The translations under genes and the position numbers were made by a program. The notes beneath the pieces are model-generated. The model worked only from the letters and a program-made list of their open reading frames with translations. It ran no database searches and was not told where the DNA came from. Shown piece after piece: positions 46,507 to 62,377 of a DNA stretch of 64,000 nucleotides (position 1 is the first letter of the stretch; every line of letters starts with the position of its first letter). This DNA comes from Gemmatimonadaceae bacterium (lineage in GTDB: Bacteria > Gemmatimonadota > Gemmatimonadetes > Gemmatimonadales > Gemmatimonadaceae): assembly GCA_035606695.1 (NCBI GenBank), contig DATNEW010000026.1, forward strand, positions 434,001 through 498,000, read 5' to 3'.

Positions 46507-46546
46507 CCGGCGCCACCCGGCGCCACCCGGCGCTAGCCGGCGCTCA
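46507..46546. repeat. four 10-bp repeats at the lysozyme 3' end
   Basis: CCGGCGCCAC (46507-46516, 46517-46526), CCGGCGCTAG (46527-46536) and CCGGCGCTCA (46537-46546) run in tandem. The lysozyme stop codon (46535-46533) lies inside the third unit. Confidence 0.85.
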
Positions 46547-47378
46547 GCACTTTCCCACTGCTCCACCCAACGACGCCCTCGCCGTCGTCGACTTTCCACC
46601 ACTCGCGATCCTTCGCGAGCTCGGGCCCGTCGACCACCACTACGCCAGTTCCGCGCGGCAGCGTTCCGACCACCCGCGCGGCAAGGCTCGCTGCGGCGCG
46701 TACGTTGCCGTCCTGGGTGAACACGGCCATTTCTCCGACGGCGAGCGCACGCGTGCGCAAGCTCTCGAGCGCGGCAAGGTCGCCGGCCGTGCGATCGCGA
46801 TCGACGATCGTCGAAATGCCGTTCACAGTTCCTTTATCTGTATACTGCCATAAGGCCTGTTGGTGCCAGCCGCCCGGAATCGTCGGCGCGTCCGCGTAGC
46901 TGGCGATCCACAGCGGGCACTTCGACGCGAACGCGTCCGCGTTGCCGGTAATCTCCTTCCACGCCGAGGGATAGGTGTAGATCATCGGCGCGACGCTCAG
47001 CGCGGCTTCGACGGCATCCACGAACTCGCCGATGCGTCGCACGACGTTCGCCGTCGAATACGTGATCGGTCCGGCGCCGTCGCCGGGTGCTTCGACGTCG
47101 AGGGCCGGGAGCAGGTCGCCCGGCTGCGGATGTCCCGTCGCTTTGAGGAACGACGTCGCCTGCAGTGCCGGATCGGCGTCGTGCCGATAAAAGTGATAGA
47201 CGCCGACCACGATTCCGGCGTCGCGCGCGCCGCTCACGTTGATCGTGAATGTGGGATCGATCCAATCCGTGCCCTCGGTCGCCTTCACCATCGCGAACGA
47301 GATGCCCGCGCGCTTCACCTTCGTCCAATCGATCGTGAGGTTGCGGTGCGAAACGTCGACGCCTTCGAGCTCGGCCAC
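46533..47378 (-). CDS. GH25 lysozyme with C-terminal SH3-like domain
   Basis: A 281-residue muramidase. The GH25 domain (about 1-195) opens with the active-site pair VDVSHRNLTIDWTKVKRAGI and includes LPALDVEAPG (catalytic Asp and Glu), YHFYRHDADP, MIYTYPSAW and GWHQQALWQYTDKG. A bacterial SH3-like domain (about 220-281: ARVVGTLPRGTGVVVV) ends in DDGEGVVGWSSGKVL. No signal peptide is present, as in phage endolysins, so export must be non-canonical or the gene is phage-derived. No other phage gene is adjacent. Confidence 0.9.
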   Translation of the reverse strand: MAELEGVDVSHRNLTIDWTKVKRAGISFAMVKATEGTDWIDPTFTINVSGARDAGIVVGVYHFYRHDADPALQATSFLKATGHPQPGDLLPALDVEAPGDGAGPITYSTANVVRRIGEFVDAVEAALSVAPMIYTYPSAWKEITGNADAFASKCPLWIASYADAPTIPGGWHQQALWQYTDKGTVNGISTIVDRDRTAGDLAALESLRTRALAVGEMAVFTQDGNVRAAASLAARVVGTLPRGTGVVVVDGPELAKDREWWKVDDGEGVVGWSSGKVLSAG

Positions 47379-50786: not shown

Positions 50787-50868
50787 GCGGCACCGACACG
50801 CAATCGTCCGACCGCCCCCACGTTCCACAACATGAAGATTTCTGAATGTCGTGAGGCTGACGCGGGCC

Positions 50869-51354
50869 TCAGCCCTTCACGAGCTGACCACACTTGGTGC
50901 ACATGTACAGCTTGTTCCACTGTGCTTTCTGATCGTAATAGTCATCGCTCTGCTTGCGCACCGTCGTGAGAAAGACCATGAGCGTGATGACGATCGCGGC
51001 GACGACGGCGAACTGCCCGGCGGTGGGATTCACGCGCGCGTAGACGAAATAGGCGGCGCCCGCGAGCGGAATGGCGACGAGGATCGTGCGCAGTCGCGCC
51101 GAGCGACGGCGCGGCGGCGCGAACCTGGCGATGATCTGTTGCTCGCTCAGTCCGCCGATCCCCGGCTCCGACGACGCAGCGCCCGCGTTCTCGGCATGCC
51201 GCACCGCCTCGTAGAACAGATCATCGACTTTGACGAAATCGGCCGCGTTGCACTTGGGACAACGCGCGTCGCCCAGCCCCTCGGGCTTTTCTCCCCCGAG
51301 GTTCGCGAACGCGCCCATCAGTGCCTCGAACCCTTCCAGTCCGTCGCCCGGCAT
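50869..51354 (-). CDS. zinc-ribbon / two-helix membrane protein
   Basis: A 161-residue protein with CPKC (in GDARCPKCNAADFVKV) near residue 32 and CTKC (in YMCTKCGQLVKG) at the very end. The two cysteine pairs lie on either side of two membrane helices (LRTILVAIPLAGAAYFVYAR and FAVVAAIVITLMVFLTTVRK). The four cysteines could form one zinc site if both ends face the cytosol. No family is assigned. It lies just downstream of the SET gene on the same strand (23 bases), perhaps in the same transcript. Confidence 0.65.
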   Translation of the reverse strand: MPGDGLEGFEALMGAFANLGGEKPEGLGDARCPKCNAADFVKVDDLFYEAVRHAENAGAASSEPGIGGLSEQQIIARFAPPRRRSARLRTILVAIPLAGAAYFVYARVNPTAGQFAVVAAIVITLMVFLTTVRKQSDDYYDQKAQWNKLYMCTKCGQLVKG

Positions 51355-51377
51355 GTCAGCCTCGCATGTCTCTCAAA

Positions 51378-51875
51378 TTATACGAAGACGCGGAGGATGA
51401 ACCCAGGGACCATGCCGCGATTCACGTATTTTTTGCGCAGGCCCTGAGGGAGAGAGCCGAAGTTCCGGATGATGCGCCGGCACTGTGGCGAGCCACAGCG
51501 GCAGCGCATGGTCCAGATGTCGTCGTCGGCGATGGTCGTCGAGTAGTCGAAGGTGATCTCGCGGCCGGCGGAAATCGCCGCGACCGCGACGAGATACAGG
51601 CGATTTCGCGCCTTGTGCACCGCGGCATTGGGCACGCACGAGTGATTGACGTATCGCGCGGGGCGATCGCCGGGGTCGAGATACGTCTCGGGCCCAAAGC
51701 GGTAGCAGTTGTCCATGAAGCTGCCGCGCCGCTTCAGGAGCTCGCGCCAATTCACGAGGCGGCCATCGATCCGCAGAATCGTGTCGCCGGCGACGAAGCG
51801 CTCCGTGGCGAAGAGGCCCAGCCCAATCCGGCTCGGCCGCACCTCGACGCCGCCGGTCGAGGTGCTCACGGCCAT
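51378..51875 (-). CDS. SET-domain protein (methyltransferase-like)
   Basis: A 165-residue minimal SET domain: IGLGLFATERFVAGDTILRI opens it, YVNHSCVPNAAV is the NHSCxPN AdoMet/lysine site, REITFDYST the ExxFDY-like motif, and CRCGSPQCRRII a post-SET-type zinc knuckle (CxCxxxxC). Bacterial SET proteins are sparse; some methylate histone-like proteins or ribosomal proteins. The ATG overlaps the preceding TGase-like gene by ten bases. Confidence 0.85.
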   Translation of the reverse strand: MAVSTSTGGVEVRPSRIGLGLFATERFVAGDTILRIDGRLVNWRELLKRRGSFMDNCYRFGPETYLDPGDRPARYVNHSCVPNAAVHKARNRLYLVAVAAISAGREITFDYSTTIADDDIWTMRCRCGSPQCRRIIRNFGSLPQGLRKKYVNRGMVPGFILRVFV

Positions 51876-52504
51876 TCGACCAGCTTGCCGGCGCGGATCT
51901 CGATGTCGTCGGCTCGGCGCAAACCGGCGATCTGCGCGCGCCCGAGCAGCTTCACGTGCCGCGAGCGGTCGAGCGCGTCCTGAATGTCCCAAAGCTCGTC
52001 CTCGCGGGTGATCCACTCCGTCCCGTGGCGGCGGAGGTCGTACGGCTCGGAATACCAGCGCAGCGTCTTGCGGCCGTCGTTCAGAAAATACTCATGAAAG
52101 AATGATACTGCCAATTCTCTAATGTCGCGATAGATCGGCTCGCGATACCGCAACACCGCGTGATTCGTCTTCGTGACGCCGCCCCAGAACCGCCCGCGGC
52201 GAAACAGCGCCACCACGTGATCGACGTCGTGGCGGTTGGTCTTGAGATCCATCACGAGCGGCGGCTGGCCGTGGAGCCAGAAGGCCAGCGCCGCCACGAG
52301 CGCGCCTTCCATGCAATGCGCCGACTTGCGGCGCAGCGTCGTCAGCGCCGACGAACAGGTCTCGCGCCCGCGCTCGTGGTTGATCGGAATCGTATCGAGA
52401 TAATCCTGGACCCGCCTCGGGCTCGAGAGCGCCCTGAGCGGCCGCAGCTCGGGCAGCGCGGCGATGCCCGCCGGAGGACGGCGACGATGCCGTACGCGCG
52501 TCAC
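51866..52504 (-). CDS. transglutaminase-like cysteine-protease-fold protein
   Basis: A 212-residue cytosolic protein from a GTG that overlaps the beta-lactamase stop (GTGA). The middle holds RRKSAHCMEGALVAALAFWL, with a Cys at the start of a helix, and about 35 residues later NRHDVDHVVALFRRGRFWGG with a His. This spacing matches the Cys/His layout of bacterial transglutaminase-like folds. The remainder (IYRDIRELAVSFFHEYF) is helical. I do not recognise a characterised family. It overlaps genes on both sides, so all three are translated together. Confidence 0.6.
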   Translation of the reverse strand: MTRVRHRRRPPAGIAALPELRPLRALSSPRRVQDYLDTIPINHERGRETCSSALTTLRRKSAHCMEGALVAALAFWLHGQPPLVMDLKTNRHDVDHVVALFRRGRFWGGVTKTNHAVLRYREPIYRDIRELAVSFFHEYFLNDGRKTLRWYSEPYDLRRHGTEWITREDELWDIQDALDRSRHVKLLGRAQIAGLRRADDIEIRAGKLVEWP

Positions 52505-53913
52505 TCCGGCGTCACGATGTACTGCTCGATCTTGCCGTCCGGCATCACGAACGTCGACACGCCGTAGTTCTTCGCGCCGCATTGCACCCGGTATCCGCGA
52601 TACGTCATTCCACCGCGCAGCGAGTACGACGTCTGCTGCACGCCCTTGATCGCACCGCACGACGCCAGGCTCGACGCAAAGTCCTTGATCGCGACGTCGC
52701 TGAAGTACGCATTGGCATTCGAGGTGAAAAGCGAACGATCGACCTGGCCGTGCATCAGTCCCGCGAAGACCGACTTCGTTTGTGCGATCGCCTTCTCGGT
52801 GGCCGGATCGGTCGTCGAGAAGAGCACATCCTCGATGCGCGACGCGATCACCGACTGCACGTCCGTCGCGAACAGATTCGCGAACACCACCACCGCCATG
52901 CGATCGTCGGGAAAGATCGCGTTCTGCGTCGAGAAGCCGGACACCTCGCCGCCATGCGAGATCATGCGGTGCCCGTTGAACGATCCAGTGTAGACCCCGA
53001 GCCCGTAACCGGTCGCGCGGCCGTCGGTGAGGATCATGCTGGTCTGCTGTGCGCGATACGACGCGGGCTTGAGAATCGACTGCTTGATCACCGAGATGTC
53101 CCAGCGCGCCAGATCGCTCGAGCTCATCGCCAGCTCGCCGGCGGCGAACATCCAGCCTCGGCCTTCCTTCGGCGCGACGCGCGGCGGACCGAGACCAAAA
53201 CGCTCGTAGCGCTCCGGATCGCCGGGGCCGAGGGCGCCTTCGTCGGTGATCATGACAGAACTCATATGCAGCGGCGTGAAGACGTGCTGGCGCAGGAAGT
53301 CGACGAGCGGCATCCCGGTCACCTTCTCGACGATGACACCCGCGATCACGTAATTCGTATTGCTGTACTGCCACTTGCTGCCGGGGTCGAAGTCGAGCGG
53401 CTTCTTCGCCCACTCGTCGAGAATCGCCTGCGCCGTCACGGGCTTGAGCATCGGCGGCATGACGTAGTCCTGCGGCCAGTAGTCCTGATAGCCCGACGTC
53501 ATCGACAGGATCTGGCGAATCGAGACTTCGTTCGCGCGCGTCAAATTCGGCAGAAACTTCGCCACCTTGTCGTCGAGCGACAGCTTTCCCTGTTCGGCAA
53601 GCAGCAGGACCGCCGTCGCCGTGATCTGCTTGCTCACCGACCCGATGCTGTAGCGCATGGAGGGCGTCGCGGGCAGCGGCGGTGAGAGCCGCGCCATCCC
53701 GTACGCGTTCGTGTACGCAATCTCCCCATCCTTCACGACGGCGATCGACACACTCGGCGCACCGCGCGCGGTCATCTCCTGCTTGACGATGCTGTCGATG
53801 CGGGCGCGCATGGCGGCGGGCAGCGTGGCCGTTGCCTGCGCGTGGACGACCCATGCCGGGCCGGCGATCAGCGCGGCCGCGAGGAGGACACCGCGGCGAA
53901 TCGAATCGGACAT
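52501..53913 (-). CDS. class C beta-lactamase-related serine hydrolase
   Basis: A 470-residue exported serine hydrolase. Signal peptide: SIRRGVLLAAALIAGPAWVV. The catalytic SxxK is SVSK in YSIGSVSKQITATAVLLLAE, the Tyr motif is YSN in WQYSNTNYVI, and the third motif HGG in HGGEVSG. A C-terminal beta-rich extension (about 370-470) follows. The family covers esterases, D-aminopeptidases and beta-lactamases, and resistance is not implied. ATG 53913 has GGGAG 5 bases upstream. It is the first gene of an overlapping three-gene set. Confidence 0.92.
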   Translation of the reverse strand: MSDSIRRGVLLAAALIAGPAWVVHAQATATLPAAMRARIDSIVKQEMTARGAPSVSIAVVKDGEIAYTNAYGMARLSPPLPATPSMRYSIGSVSKQITATAVLLLAEQGKLSLDDKVAKFLPNLTRANEVSIRQILSMTSGYQDYWPQDYVMPPMLKPVTAQAILDEWAKKPLDFDPGSKWQYSNTNYVIAGVIVEKVTGMPLVDFLRQHVFTPLHMSSVMITDEGALGPGDPERYERFGLGPPRVAPKEGRGWMFAAGELAMSSSDLARWDISVIKQSILKPASYRAQQTSMILTDGRATGYGLGVYTGSFNGHRMISHGGEVSGFSTQNAIFPDDRMAVVVFANLFATDVQSVIASRIEDVLFSTTDPATEKAIAQTKSVFAGLMHGQVDRSLFTSNANAYFSDVAIKDFASSLASCGAIKGVQQTSYSLRGGMTYRGYRVQCGAKNYGVSTFVMPDGKIEQYIVTPE

Positions 53914-53989
53914 TGAAACTCCCATGGCGGATTGCGGGCGAACAGCGACCGCCATGGAAGATATCGAATGTCCGCCACCGACACGACCG

Positions 53990-56647
53990 CTATTCGGCTC
54001 GCAGCGCTCCCGCGGGATCGACGCGCGCCGCGCGCAATCCGGGCACGAGCGACGCGATGATCGCGAGCGCGATGAGCAGCACGGTCGCGCCGATCATCAC
54101 GCTTGGATCGCGCGGCGTGACGCCGAACAGGAACGCGCCGACCAGCTTGCCGCCGATCAACGCCGCCGCGACTCCGATCGCCGCGCCGATCCCGACCGTG
54201 CGCGCGCCGTCCGCGAGCACGAGATCGAGAATGTCCCTGGTCCTGGCGCCGAGCGCGATGCGAATGCCCATCTCGTTCGTGCGCTGGCTCGCGCCGTATG
54301 CCACGACGCTGTAGATGCCGAATCCCGCGACGATGAGTGAGAGAATTCCGAACGCCGTGAACAGCGACGCACCCAGGCGCCACGGCCTCAGCTCGCGCGC
54401 CATGAGGTCGCTGAGCGCGCGAACCTCGACGCCGTCCGACGCCGGCATCAGCTCGCGGATGAGACGCTCCGCCGCGGCCCGTACTTCGCCGGCACTGTTC
54501 CCGCTCACGCGCACCTCGAGCGTCATCGGCGCGCTCTTCTGCTGCTGCAGCGGGCGATAATACATCATCGATCGTGCTTCGATGATGCGTCTCGCGTGCG
54601 CGTCGCGCGCCACGCCGACGACCGTCACGCACGGGCCGTCGCGCTTGCCGAACATCAGGCATTTGCCCAGCGGCGACTCCGCGGGCCACACCGCGTGCGC
54701 CATCGTCTCGTTGATGACCACCACCAGCGGTGCTCCCTCGCGATCGCCAGCGCCGATGCCGCGCCCCGCGACGAGCGACATTCCAGTCGCCGCGAAGAAT
54801 GATGGACCGATGGAATTCCCAGCCGGCGTGCCGAACGGCCCAATGCGCGGCAGCGAATCGCGGCCGGGCACGAAGACCTCCTGAAAGGTGATGCCCTCCA
54901 TCGGCGCGTTCGAGGAGAGCGACACGTTCGTCACGCCACGGACGCGACGTAACTGATCGACGAGCGCCGGCATGGCACGCCTCAGATCCTCGCCGTGTGC
55001 GAACGCGCCGTCCGGAAAGGACGGTTGGAGAAACAACAGTCCATTACCGTCGTAGCCCAGTGGAATCGTTTCGACGTTGTTCAAGCTGCGGAGGAACAAA
55101 CCGGCACCGACGAGCAGCACGATGCAGAGCGCCGTCTGTACGACGAGCGAGAAGCCCCGCAGCCGCGACGCGTGATACGCCGCATCACGATTGCCCGCGC
55201 GCAGCGCGTCGATCACGTTGGTGCGCAACCCATTCAGCGCGGGAAAGACGCCCACCGCCAATCCAACCACGATGCTCGTGGCGAGAATGAACATCGCGGT
55301 GCGCCATTCCACGACAGGCGTGGACCAGTGAATGCCGGGCAACATCAGGCGGCGCAGCGCGGTGCCGGCGACTTGCGCGACGACCGTCGCGACCGCGCCG
55401 CCGACGAGTGCGAGCGTCACGCTCTCCGTCGTCATTTGCATCAACAATCGTCCGTGCGAGACGCCGAGCGCGCGGCGGACGGCAAGCTCGCGGCGCCGGC
55501 GCGATGCGCGGAGCAGCAAGAGATTCACGACGTTCGCGCAGGCGATGACGAGCACGATGAGCGCAATCCACGACACCCGCTTCGCTACGATCACCTCGGC
55601 GGCAGGCTTCGCCGGTCCGAGCGCGCTCACGATCGAACCGTCAAGCACTTCGGCTCGCGGGTCGTCGGCCATGTATTGCAGGTGGACGCCGCGATAGGCG
55701 TTCGTCGCGCGACCCAGGAATGCACGCTCGTCGACGCGGGGGCTCAATCGCGCGACGACGGTCACCATGGAGCTCATGTTGGTGTACCATGGGCCGCTCG
55801 CGCCCATGAACTGTCCGATGTGCGTGTTGAGCGGAACCCAGACGTCCCCTGCATCCAGATCGAGGCCGCGGAAATGGCGCGGCGTGACGCCGACGATCGT
55901 GAACGCGCGCTGGCCGATCTTGATCTTGCGGCCCAACACGCCAACATCGCCGTTGAAGCGCGAATGCCACAACGCGTCGCTGATGACCGCGACGAACGTG
56001 GGCGTTTCGATCGCGGTCTCGTCGCCCGCAAAGAAGCGGCCGATTTGCGCGCGCATCGAGAGGACGTCGAAGTAGTTGCCCGACACTTCGGTCACACCGG
56101 CATGCATCCGTGCGCCGTCGATCTCCATCGTGGCGGAGTCCGGACCGCTCGCCGCGGCGAGTGGAACGCCCGGATTCGCGGCCGCGATGGCGCGATAGGC
56201 CGGATAGGTCACCGTGGGCCATGCCCGCGGCGCTTCACGAGGATCGCTGGAATGCGCAAGGTGATACAGCCGCCGCAGCGCGCGCGGCGCGGGGACGCCG
56301 GCGGGCGTGCGCAGGAACATCGCGTCGAAGATCGAGAACATCGCCGCGTTGACGCCCACGCCCAGCGCGAGCGTGATGACCACCGCCAGCGTGAACGCGG
56401 GCGTGCGGCGCAGCGCACGAACCGTGTACGTCAGATCCTGCCGCAGGCGATCGAGCCACCGCAGCGCCGACGTTTCTCGCGTCGCCTCGCGGTAGTAGCT
56501 CGCGTTGCCGAATTGCCGGGGCGAGGCATGACCAGCCTGCGCCTGCAGCTCGCGATGGAACTCCATCTCGCGCTGCACGTCGGATGCGTACGCTTCGCCG
56601 CGCCACAGGACGCGCAGCCGATGAATGGTGCCGTGGATGAACGACAT
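53990..56647 (-). CDS. MacB/FtsX-type ABC permease (ADOP family)
   Basis: An 885-residue orphan permease of the same kind as at 29856. The N-terminal prefix (YASDVQREMEFHRELQAQAG) is followed by FTLAVVITLALGVGVNAAMF, the large periplasmic region, a second membrane module (LIVLVIACANVVNLLLLRAS, VVGLAVGVFPALNGLR) and a last set (ASLFTAFGILSLIVAGFGIY, VMIGATVLLIALAIIASLVP). It lies 15 bases after its PadR gene and 76 bases upstream of the beta-lactamase gene on the same strand, so a PadR-permease-lactamase transcript is possible. Confidence 0.9.
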   Translation of the reverse strand: MSFIHGTIHRLRVLWRGEAYASDVQREMEFHRELQAQAGHASPRQFGNASYYREATRETSALRWLDRLRQDLTYTVRALRRTPAFTLAVVITLALGVGVNAAMFSIFDAMFLRTPAGVPAPRALRRLYHLAHSSDPREAPRAWPTVTYPAYRAIAAANPGVPLAAASGPDSATMEIDGARMHAGVTEVSGNYFDVLSMRAQIGRFFAGDETAIETPTFVAVISDALWHSRFNGDVGVLGRKIKIGQRAFTIVGVTPRHFRGLDLDAGDVWVPLNTHIGQFMGASGPWYTNMSSMVTVVARLSPRVDERAFLGRATNAYRGVHLQYMADDPRAEVLDGSIVSALGPAKPAAEVIVAKRVSWIALIVLVIACANVVNLLLLRASRRRRELAVRRALGVSHGRLLMQMTTESVTLALVGGAVATVVAQVAGTALRRLMLPGIHWSTPVVEWRTAMFILATSIVVGLAVGVFPALNGLRTNVIDALRAGNRDAAYHASRLRGFSLVVQTALCIVLLVGAGLFLRSLNNVETIPLGYDGNGLLFLQPSFPDGAFAHGEDLRRAMPALVDQLRRVRGVTNVSLSSNAPMEGITFQEVFVPGRDSLPRIGPFGTPAGNSIGPSFFAATGMSLVAGRGIGAGDREGAPLVVVINETMAHAVWPAESPLGKCLMFGKRDGPCVTVVGVARDAHARRIIEARSMMYYRPLQQQKSAPMTLEVRVSGNSAGEVRAAAERLIRELMPASDGVEVRALSDLMARELRPWRLGASLFTAFGILSLIVAGFGIYSVVAYGASQRTNEMGIRIALGARTRDILDLVLADGARTVGIGAAIGVAAALIGGKLVGAFLFGVTPRDPSVMIGATVLLIALAIIASLVPGLRAARVDPAGALRAE

Positions 56648-56662
56648 CGATGTCTCCCGGAC

Positions 56663-57010
56663 TCAGACGTGGCGCAGAATGCGAGCGATAGCTGCCGAGA
56701 CGCGATCGTATTCCTCGACGCGATCGTGGAGCTGCTTGTGGCCCGCGCGCGTGATGGTGTAGTAGCGCGCCTGGCGCTTGGTCGGCGATTCCGCCCACTT
56801 GGCGGTGACCCATCCCTGGTTGAGCAGGCGCTCGAGGGCAGGGTAGAGGGAGCCTTGCTCCACGCTCAACACGCCGTCCGAGATTTGCGCGATGTGCTGC
56901 GCGATCGCGTAGCCGTGCAGCGGGCCGAGCGTCAGCGTCCGCAGAATGAGCATGTCGAGCGTACCGACGGGCAGTGACGCGTCGGCCCTGTCCGAGCTGC
57001 GAGGGGACAT
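56663..57010 (-). CDS. PadR family repressor
   Basis: A 115-residue repressor: LPVGTLDMLILRTLTLGPLH, YAIAQHIAQI, VEQGSLYPALERLLNQGWVT and ARYYTITRAGHKQL form the standard PadR winged helix. The start ATG at 57010 follows a large dyad that spans its own promoter, so autoregulation is expected. The permease begins 15 bases after its stop. Confidence 0.92.
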   Translation of the reverse strand: MSPRSSDRADASLPVGTLDMLILRTLTLGPLHGYAIAQHIAQISDGVLSVEQGSLYPALERLLNQGWVTAKWAESPTKRQARYYTITRAGHKQLHDRVEEYDRVSAAIARILRHV

Positions 57011-59863: not shown

Positions 59864-62377
59864 ATGCGCGACAACGGTAGGAGCTCCAGCCGCCTCGGCC
59901 TTCTGGACGTGCGCGCCATTCTGAGATCGCTCCGTCGCGCCCCACTCTTCACGACGACCGTCGTTTGCACGCTAGCGCTGGGCATCGGCGCCACGTCGGC
60001 GATCTTCACCGTCGTCGACGCCGTACTGCTGCGGCCGCTGCCGTATCGCGATTCGGGCCGGCTCGTCGCGCTGCGACATACGCTGCTCGGCATCGGCATT
60101 CCGACGGCGGGGCAATCGCTCGGAACGTATTTCCACTATCGGCGATCGAGCCACACGCTGTCCGCGGTTGCGGCTTATCAACGGCCGTCCGTCAATCTGT
60201 CCGACGCCTCGGGCACGACTGAGCCCGAGCGTGTTTCGGGCGCGAGGGTCACGGCGAATCTCCTGCCGATGCTCGGCATCAAGCCCGCGCTCGGGCGCTC
60301 GTTTACGGAAGAGGAAGACCGGCCGAACGGCGGTAACGTCGCGCTGATCGGCGATGCGCTGTGGCGCCGCCGATACGGCGCAGATCCGCACATCGTGGGT
60401 CGCACCATTCGCGTGGACGCCGCGGCGTTCACGATCATTGGCGTCATGCCGGCCGGCTTCACCTTTCCGGGAGTGAACACCGATCTCTGGCTACCCCTGC
60501 AACTCGACCCCGCGACGACGAACGCGGGCGGATTCAACGTGGCTGCGCTTGGGAGGTTGGCTCCGAACGCCACGGTCGACGGCGCGCAGCGTGAGCTGAA
60601 CGATCTCCTCGTGCGCTTGCCCGAGGCGTATCCGAATGTCTACCCCGGACTGCCGACGGCGGGCCTGCTCAAACAATCACGCGCTCGCGCCGTGGTGCTC
60701 ACGATGAAGGACGAAGCGATCGGCGGCTTCGCGCGCATATTGTGGATCGTCCTCGCGACCGTCGGACTCGTGCTGGTGGTCACGTGCGCCAACGTCTCGA
60801 ACTTGATGCTCGTGCGCGCGCAGGGCCGCGGCCGCGAGATCGCGGTTCGTTCCGCGCTCGGCGCCAGCCGTGGAAATATCCTGGCCGGCTTTCTCACCGA
60901 AGGCTTGATCCTCGCGATCCTGGGCGCGATTGGCGGGCTCGCGCTCGCGTTCATTGCCGTGCATTTGCTTGTCAACGCCGGTGCACAGAATCTCCCGCGT
61001 CTGAACGAAGTGCGGATGGGCGGCGTGACGTTCGCGTTCACCGCGCTGCTCGCCGTCGTCGTGGCGCTCGTTTGCAGCGTGCTGCCCGCGCTGCGGCTGC
61101 GCGGCGCCAACGTGTCGGCGATGTTGCGCGAGGGCGGCCGCACGGGAACGGCCGGTCGCGGACAACATCGGGCGCAACACACGCTCGTCGTGGTGCAGAT
61201 GGCGCTTGCCGTGCTGCTCGTGGCCGGCTCGGGCCTATTGATGCGCACCGTCGCGCACCTTCGCTCGGTGCGCCCGGGGTTCGATCCGGCGAACACGCTC
61301 GCCTTTACGATCTCGCTGCCGGTGGGCGACATGCCTCACGCGCGCGACGCGGCGCTCTATTATGAATCTTTAATAGATCGCCTTGGCGCGCTGCCGGGCG
61401 TGCGGAGCGTTGGCCTCACGACCAAGCTCCCGCTCATCGGCGGCGAAAGTCTGACGCCGGTCTACATCGAGTCGCAGCCGATGCAGGGCACCACGCTGCC
61501 GCCGGTGTTTCCGTTTCCGGAGGCCACGCCGGGGTACTTCCAGGCCATGCGCATCGCGCTCGTTGCGGGGCGGTTGTTCGGCCCGCCGACCGATCCGAAC
61601 GCGGAGAAGGACGTCGTCGTCAGCCGCGCCTTCGCCGAGCGCTTCTGGCACGATCCGACGGGGGCGAGGGCGCTCGGCCAGCACGTGCGTGCGACCGTAG
61701 AGCAGCCATGGTTCACGATCGTCGGCGTCGTCGAGAGCGTACGCGATTCGTCGCTCACCGCCGACGGGGTCGGCGAGGTCTACACGCCGCTCGTCATTCC
61801 ATCGCCTGAGACGCCGGACAGCACGCGCAACATGCCGCGGTTCGTGTCGATCGTCATGCGCACCGCGGGCGATCCCACGGCGCTCGTGCCGTCGGTGCGC
61901 CGCACCATCTCCGAGCTGCGCGCGAGCATACCGGTGTATGATCTTCAGTCGATGAGCGACGTCCTCGCCCGGACGATGGCGCAAACGACGTTCGTCCTCG
62001 CCATCCTTGGCGCGGCCGCCGCCATCACGCTCATACTCGGTGCTGTCGGTCTGTACGGCGTGATCGCGTACTCGGTCAGCCTGCGTACGCGCGAGCTCGG
62101 CGTACGGATGGCGTTGGGCGCCGCGCCCGGCGCCATTCGCGCCATGATCCTGCACGAGGGCTCCGTGCTCGCGCTGATCGGCATCGGCGCGGGCCTTGCC
62201 GCATTCCTCGGCCTCGGCCGCCTCCTGCGGCGATTGCTCTTCGAGGTCGGCGCGGCGGATCCGGTCACGCTCGCCGTGACGGCGTTCCTGCTCCTGGCCA
62301 TCGGTCTCGTCGCGAGCTGGTTGCCCGCACGCCGCGCGGCGCGCGCCGATCCTCTGGACGCACTCCGCGCGGAATAG
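59864..62377 (+). CDS. MacB/FtsX-type ABC permease (ADOP family, no prefix)
   Basis: An 837-residue orphan permease lacking the N-terminal prefix domain; it begins at once with the first module (RAPLFTTTVVCTLALGIGAT). The periplasmic domain includes FPGVNTDLWLPLQLDP. A second module (ILWIVLATVGLVLVVTCANV, then VSNLMLVRAQGRGREIAVRS) and a last set (ITLILGAVGLYGVIAYSV, VTLAVTAFLLLAIGLVASWL) follow. No PadR gene is adjacent. It converges on the next permease with only eight bases between their stops. Confidence 0.9.
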   Translation: MRDNGRSSSRLGLLDVRAILRSLRRAPLFTTTVVCTLALGIGATSAIFTVVDAVLLRPLPYRDSGRLVALRHTLLGIGIPTAGQSLGTYFHYRRSSHTLSAVAAYQRPSVNLSDASGTTEPERVSGARVTANLLPMLGIKPALGRSFTEEEDRPNGGNVALIGDALWRRRYGADPHIVGRTIRVDAAAFTIIGVMPAGFTFPGVNTDLWLPLQLDPATTNAGGFNVAALGRLAPNATVDGAQRELNDLLVRLPEAYPNVYPGLPTAGLLKQSRARAVVLTMKDEAIGGFARILWIVLATVGLVLVVTCANVSNLMLVRAQGRGREIAVRSALGASRGNILAGFLTEGLILAILGAIGGLALAFIAVHLLVNAGAQNLPRLNEVRMGGVTFAFTALLAVVVALVCSVLPALRLRGANVSAMLREGGRTGTAGRGQHRAQHTLVVVQMALAVLLVAGSGLLMRTVAHLRSVRPGFDPANTLAFTISLPVGDMPHARDAALYYESLIDRLGALPGVRSVGLTTKLPLIGGESLTPVYIESQPMQGTTLPPVFPFPEATPGYFQAMRIALVAGRLFGPPTDPNAEKDVVVSRAFAERFWHDPTGARALGQHVRATVEQPWFTIVGVVESVRDSSLTADGVGEVYTPLVIPSPETPDSTRNMPRFVSIVMRTAGDPTALVPSVRRTISELRASIPVYDLQSMSDVLARTMAQTTFVLAILGAAAAITLILGAVGLYGVIAYSVSLRTRELGVRMALGAAPGAIRAMILHEGSVLALIGIGAGLAAFLGLGRLLRRLLFEVGAADPVTLAVTAFLLLAIGLVASWLPARRAARADPLDALRAE

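Follow-up and report, generated by a model that had tools for sequence, protein, structure and literature searches.

The window analysed here, the whole 64,000-nucleotide stretch of DNA from a Gemmatimonadaceae bacterium, carries three overlapping genes on its minus strand, as the earlier note had described. The first (52501..53913; ATG at 53913, TGA at 52501) encodes a predicted exported serine hydrolase of the beta-lactamase fold (PF00144, E 1.5e-68). The middle gene (51866..52504; GTG at 52504, TGA at 51866) encodes a predicted CPR-C4/vasohibin-like cysteine peptidase, assigned by phmmer, fold and active site, and the third (51378..51875; ATG at 51875) a SET-domain methyltransferase with a post-SET CxCx4C motif and a short C-terminal extension, assigned by PF00856, motifs and fold. 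Upstream on the same strand lie a PadR regulator (56663..56953; PF03551, E 1.3e-22) and an ADOP-family permease (53990..56647; TIGR03434, 657.7 bits, over the cut-off), the latter 76 nt from the hydrolase gene, and a small zinc-ribbon-like protein (50869..51354) is encoded 23 nt behind the SET gene. The minus-strand order thus reads PadR, ADOP permease, hydrolase, peptidase, SET, zinc-ribbon-like protein.

The hydrolase/peptidase junction reads GAGTGACG, with the peptidase GTG overlapping the hydrolase stop by 4 nt as GTGA (52504-52501), just as first noticed; from the hydrolase stop to the conserved region of the peptidase there is no other ATG, GTG or TTG. The end of the peptidase gene and the start of the SET gene share 10 nt (51866..51875, minus strand, GAATGGCCGTGA), and were the SET gene to begin instead at the possible start GTG 51869, its overlap with the peptidase gene would shrink to a 4-nt GTGA. 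Such overlaps do not imply the strict stoichiometry that had been proposed for the three products. We take the peptidase and SET frames not to be chance frames because both have distant homologues and their overlap recurs in a congener. On reading the sequences, a signal-like N-terminus is evident in the hydrolase (MSDSIRRGVLLAAALIAGPAWVVHAQA) and missing from the peptidase and SET protein, which fits the earlier description of one exported and two cytosolic enzymes. One weak promoter-like match (9/12) lies inside the peptidase gene, near chance with 0.4 expected in 50800-54100, and an RNA element was discarded as a candidate since Rfam gave no match within the window. Elsewhere in the window, positions 46533-47378 encode a GH25 lysozyme-like protein whose C-terminus carries an SH3 domain (PF01183, PF08239).

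The middle protein gave no match over the curated Pfam or NCBIfam models, including the transglutaminase core PF01841. Comparison with solved structures by phmmer matched its residues 18-212 to CPR-C4 (PDB 7ob6) with an E value of 4.7e-55, and its AlphaFold model (pLDDT 85) superposes on CPR-C4 with a Z score of 25.4 (rmsd 2.3, 195 aligned). The vasohibins follow at Z 11-13, and the next folds, LapG (Z 9) and the transglutaminases (Z around 8), are clearly behind both. The unusual catalytic set of CPR-C4 consists of C61, H93 and the backbone carbonyl of L115 (PMC9108980), which align with C64, H96 and L118 of the window protein, and T113 occupies the vasohibin Ser/Thr position (PMC4866520). 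Among 78 homologues, C64 and H96, the Cys and His whose conservation the earlier note had wished to see checked, are invariant (78/78); 77 of them have Thr or Ser at position 113, and at position 118 there is Leu in 67, with Ile or Val in the others. Sequence and model place the middle protein among the cysteine peptidases of the CPR-C4 family, as a remote relative of the vasohibins, its activity being predicted. The original label "transglutaminase-like" therefore holds at the superfamily level and fails for the specific family: a true transglutaminase or cross-linker is superseded by the CPR-C4 match in sequence and fold, and cross-linking is disfavoured by the protease activity measured for the family (PMC9108980).

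The likeness to CPR-C4 (7ob6, 7ob7, 7pjo; PMC9108980) extends over the whole length, with 45% identity in the structural alignment, and two of the three Asp positions of the zinc site are kept (D86, D95). Whereas CPR-C4 is a cysteine protease of Candidate Phyla Radiation bacteria, whose published gene neighbourhoods give no functional hint (PMC9108980), the window protein comes from a large-genome bacterium outside the Patescibacteria and its gene overlaps a SET gene. With VASH1, VASH2 and the vasohibin-like family (PF14822; PMC4866520) it shares the fold, the Leu position and the Cys-His-Ser/Thr spacing, including the 17 residues from His to Ser/Thr, but it has no SVBP partner. A profile built from 15 relatives and including a clade with an SRD motif reaches human VASH1 (E 1.1e-6), while the window protein itself gives no match to PF14822 at the curated cut-off and the best of the relatives scanned singly scores 19.9 of the 24 bits. 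Human vasohibins trim tubulin, and we know of no alpha-tubulin substrate of the vasohibin kind in bacteria. The tie of this superfamily to the vasohibins had been published before: in 2022 from structure and, where the vasohibin-like family is concerned, in 2016 from sequence. The SRD motif, which follows the catalytic His, distinguishes a further CPR-C4-related clade within the window's phylum (L043, L048, L056-L069 and similar loci); several of its members give sub-threshold matches to PF14822, the clade resembles the vasohibin-like family, and at the level of sequence it bridges CPR-C4 and the vasohibins.

The SET protein matches PF00856 with 53.4 bits against a cut-off of 22.4 (E 3.7e-14). 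Like the SET lysine methyltransferases KMT2 and ASH1L and their bacterial counterparts (PMC3980110), it keeps the GxG (G18/G20), FDY (D110-Y111) and post-SET CxCx4C (C125/C127/C132) motifs, together with an intact NHSCxPN (N77-N83), the motif singled out for checking at the outset. It differs from them in being a stand-alone protein of 165 residues in a genus-restricted subfamily. The host genome encodes two ordinary SET proteins besides; the window protein is neither of these and represents a distinct subfamily, with close members (around 60% identity) in the same two congeners as the peptidase and weaker ones in G241 and G370.

Among 395 genomes sampled from the phylum, the same three hold both the CPR-C4-type peptidase and this SET subfamily (E below 1e-55). 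Because the three belong to one genus, the fair comparison is among its six species: the peptidase gene is present in three of them, and the three presences and three absences coincide for both genes, a pattern expected by chance once in 20. The congener G001 has PadR, ADOP, peptidase and SET in that order, and the last two genes again overlap (L017: 3475-4110 and 4098-4637), by 13 nt or, from a second ATG, by 4 nt. Peptidase and SET protein are each 59% identical to those of the window. The G001 permease, by comparison, is a paralogue with 29% identity to the permease at 53990-56647 versus 31-32% to another permease of the window; the overlapping pair has therefore been kept while its setting changed. 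In the second congener, G005, the peptidase and SET genes lie on different contigs. A homologue of the zinc-ribbon-like protein is encoded there (L052:12035-12529, E 1.9e-48) 2.7 kb from the SET gene, with the peptidase gene elsewhere; the older association may be the one between SET and the zinc-ribbon-like protein.

A tree of 78 rows groups the window peptidase with those of the two congeners (support 100/96) and sets this group among Patescibacterial CPR-C4 sequences, with no firm order to the deep forks; the remaining relatives from the window's phylum fall into clades of their own. From these sequences, the genus may plausibly have acquired the peptidase gene by transfer.

Both enzymes thus belong to recognised families with intact active sites, and their genes overlap here and in a congener. 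We propose that the functional unit is the peptidase-SET pair (51378-52504), not the trio, and that the two cytosolic, translationally coupled enzymes act in one process, a reading to which we give an even chance. A serious competitor, which we hold to be possible though somewhat short of even, is chance packing: unrelated enzymes would share one crowded transcript behind the PadR-ADOP pair, and the peptidase and SET genes would have in common only a genus-restricted gain. The separation of the two genes in G005 speaks for this, as does the majority of peptidase homologues that have no SET neighbour; among the other relatives in the phylum sample, none has a SET gene within 1.5 kb. Against it stand the identical presence pattern of the two genes and their overlap in G001, which persists at 59% identity although the setting differs.

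Linkage in a second phylum also bears on this choice. Of 21 peptidase-bearing genomes in one Patescibacterial group, 10 carry a SET gene no more than 2 kb from the peptidase gene, nine of the ten downstream on the same strand; random placement would give about 0.2 genomes with such a neighbour. This linkage and a divergent peptidase-SET pair in G740 argue against chance packing, but most of the linked cases represent one inherited block, shared as a 3D-like protein, the peptidase, an F420-ligase-like gene on the other strand, SET, a cold-shock protein and PAP2. Relatives without the peptidase still carry SET beside the same block neighbours, which weakens the linkages as independent events and favours synteny; since most cases share the block, independent support amounts to the block, counted once, and perhaps G740. 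Co-occurrence of peptidase and SET genes within the group is weak (Fisher p 0.055), and the Patescibacterial genome G434 encodes a peptidase with 49% identity and has no SET gene at all. Moreover, the Patescibacterial SET proteins are of a different subfamily and are placed apart from the window's in the SET tree, so that inheritance of the pair as a unit between phyla was rejected, even though the window peptidase sits among Patescibacterial CPR-C4 sequences. The linkage suggests, short of proving, a functional tie between peptidase and SET protein. The gene lying on the opposite strand between or near the two in several Patescibacteria is F420-0:gamma-glutamyl-ligase-like (PF01996, E 8.4e-10; L144:6471-7205).

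In the proposed pair, Cys64 of the peptidase would attack a peptide bond after activation by His96, which the main-chain carbonyl of Leu118 orients; Thr113 occupies the position of the vasohibin Ser. By analogy with the vasohibins, the peptidase may trim the end of a protein. Translation of the SET gene would be coupled to that of the peptidase through the overlap, the SET product most likely methylates lysines of some protein, and the two enzymes probably serve one process, perhaps on the same target. A bolder version, in which a vasohibin-type end-trimming peptidase and a SET lysine methyltransferase modify the same protein as a two-enzyme module assembled independently in two phyla from different SET subfamilies, we consider unlikely.

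Less probable still is a small-molecule substrate for the SET protein, on the model of BurB, a SET-type S-methyltransferase that methylates methionine (PMC12542666), with the peptidase acting in the same metabolite or peptide pathway. BurB is likewise a bacterial stand-alone SET protein of similar length; its match to the window protein (PDB 9l4t/9l4v) extends into the C-terminal extension and its fold matches with Z 12.1, but the similarity is weak (E 5.8e-8), histone methyltransferases match at least equally well (KMT2B, E 8.1e-12; ASH1L, Z 13.7), and no DMSP genes were seen near the window SET gene. Because histone methyltransferases and BurB score in a similar range, similarity does not fix the class of substrate.

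The hydrolase is probably a chance neighbour and not part of the unit. It has the domain and the SxxK/YxN/HxG-type motifs (SVSK, YSN and HGG by reading) of the class C beta-lactamase-fold hydrolases (PF00144), but lies far under every curated class C cut-off (73.2 bits against 415 for the equivalog NF033085), and nothing indicates a role in resistance. When L016, L017 and L052, loci of the two peptidase- or SET-bearing congeners, were searched by tblastn, no homologue of the hydrolase appeared; the three-gene order that the earlier note had proposed looking for in other genomes is thus absent from both, and a three-gene unit was rejected. The PadR-permease pair does lie upstream on the same strand, as stated there, but the shared pathway drawn from it is not supported, the G001 permease being a paralogue; along with the hydrolase, the pair is an upstream neighbour by position only. 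The earlier suggestion of a single pathway, read as three steps with hydrolase, peptidase and SET protein all placed under the PadR-permease pair, is very improbable: contiguity, the 4-nt overlap, the lack of a terminator-like site in 50800-54100 and the PadR-ADOP pair likewise preceding the G001 genes are outweighed by the missing congeneric hydrolase, the paralogous permease and the mixing of exported with cytosolic enzymes. The window encodes a second ADOP-type permease (59864-62377), whose likeness to the G001 permease equals that of the permease beside the hydrolase.

Two further contexts were set aside. No match was found to phages, plasmids or viral contigs, nor any PHROG for the peptidase or SET protein, so that mobile or phage cargo was rejected, and a known defence system was rejected in view of no PADLOC match.

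Each of the two enzyme families was known before; the novelty lies in identifying the middle protein and in its recurrent pairing with a SET neighbour. Few bacterial SET proteins, and no CPR-C4 peptidase, have a known physiological substrate. The recurrent overlapping pair gives each of these orphan enzymes a candidate partner, and this pairing makes the question of their substrates testable.
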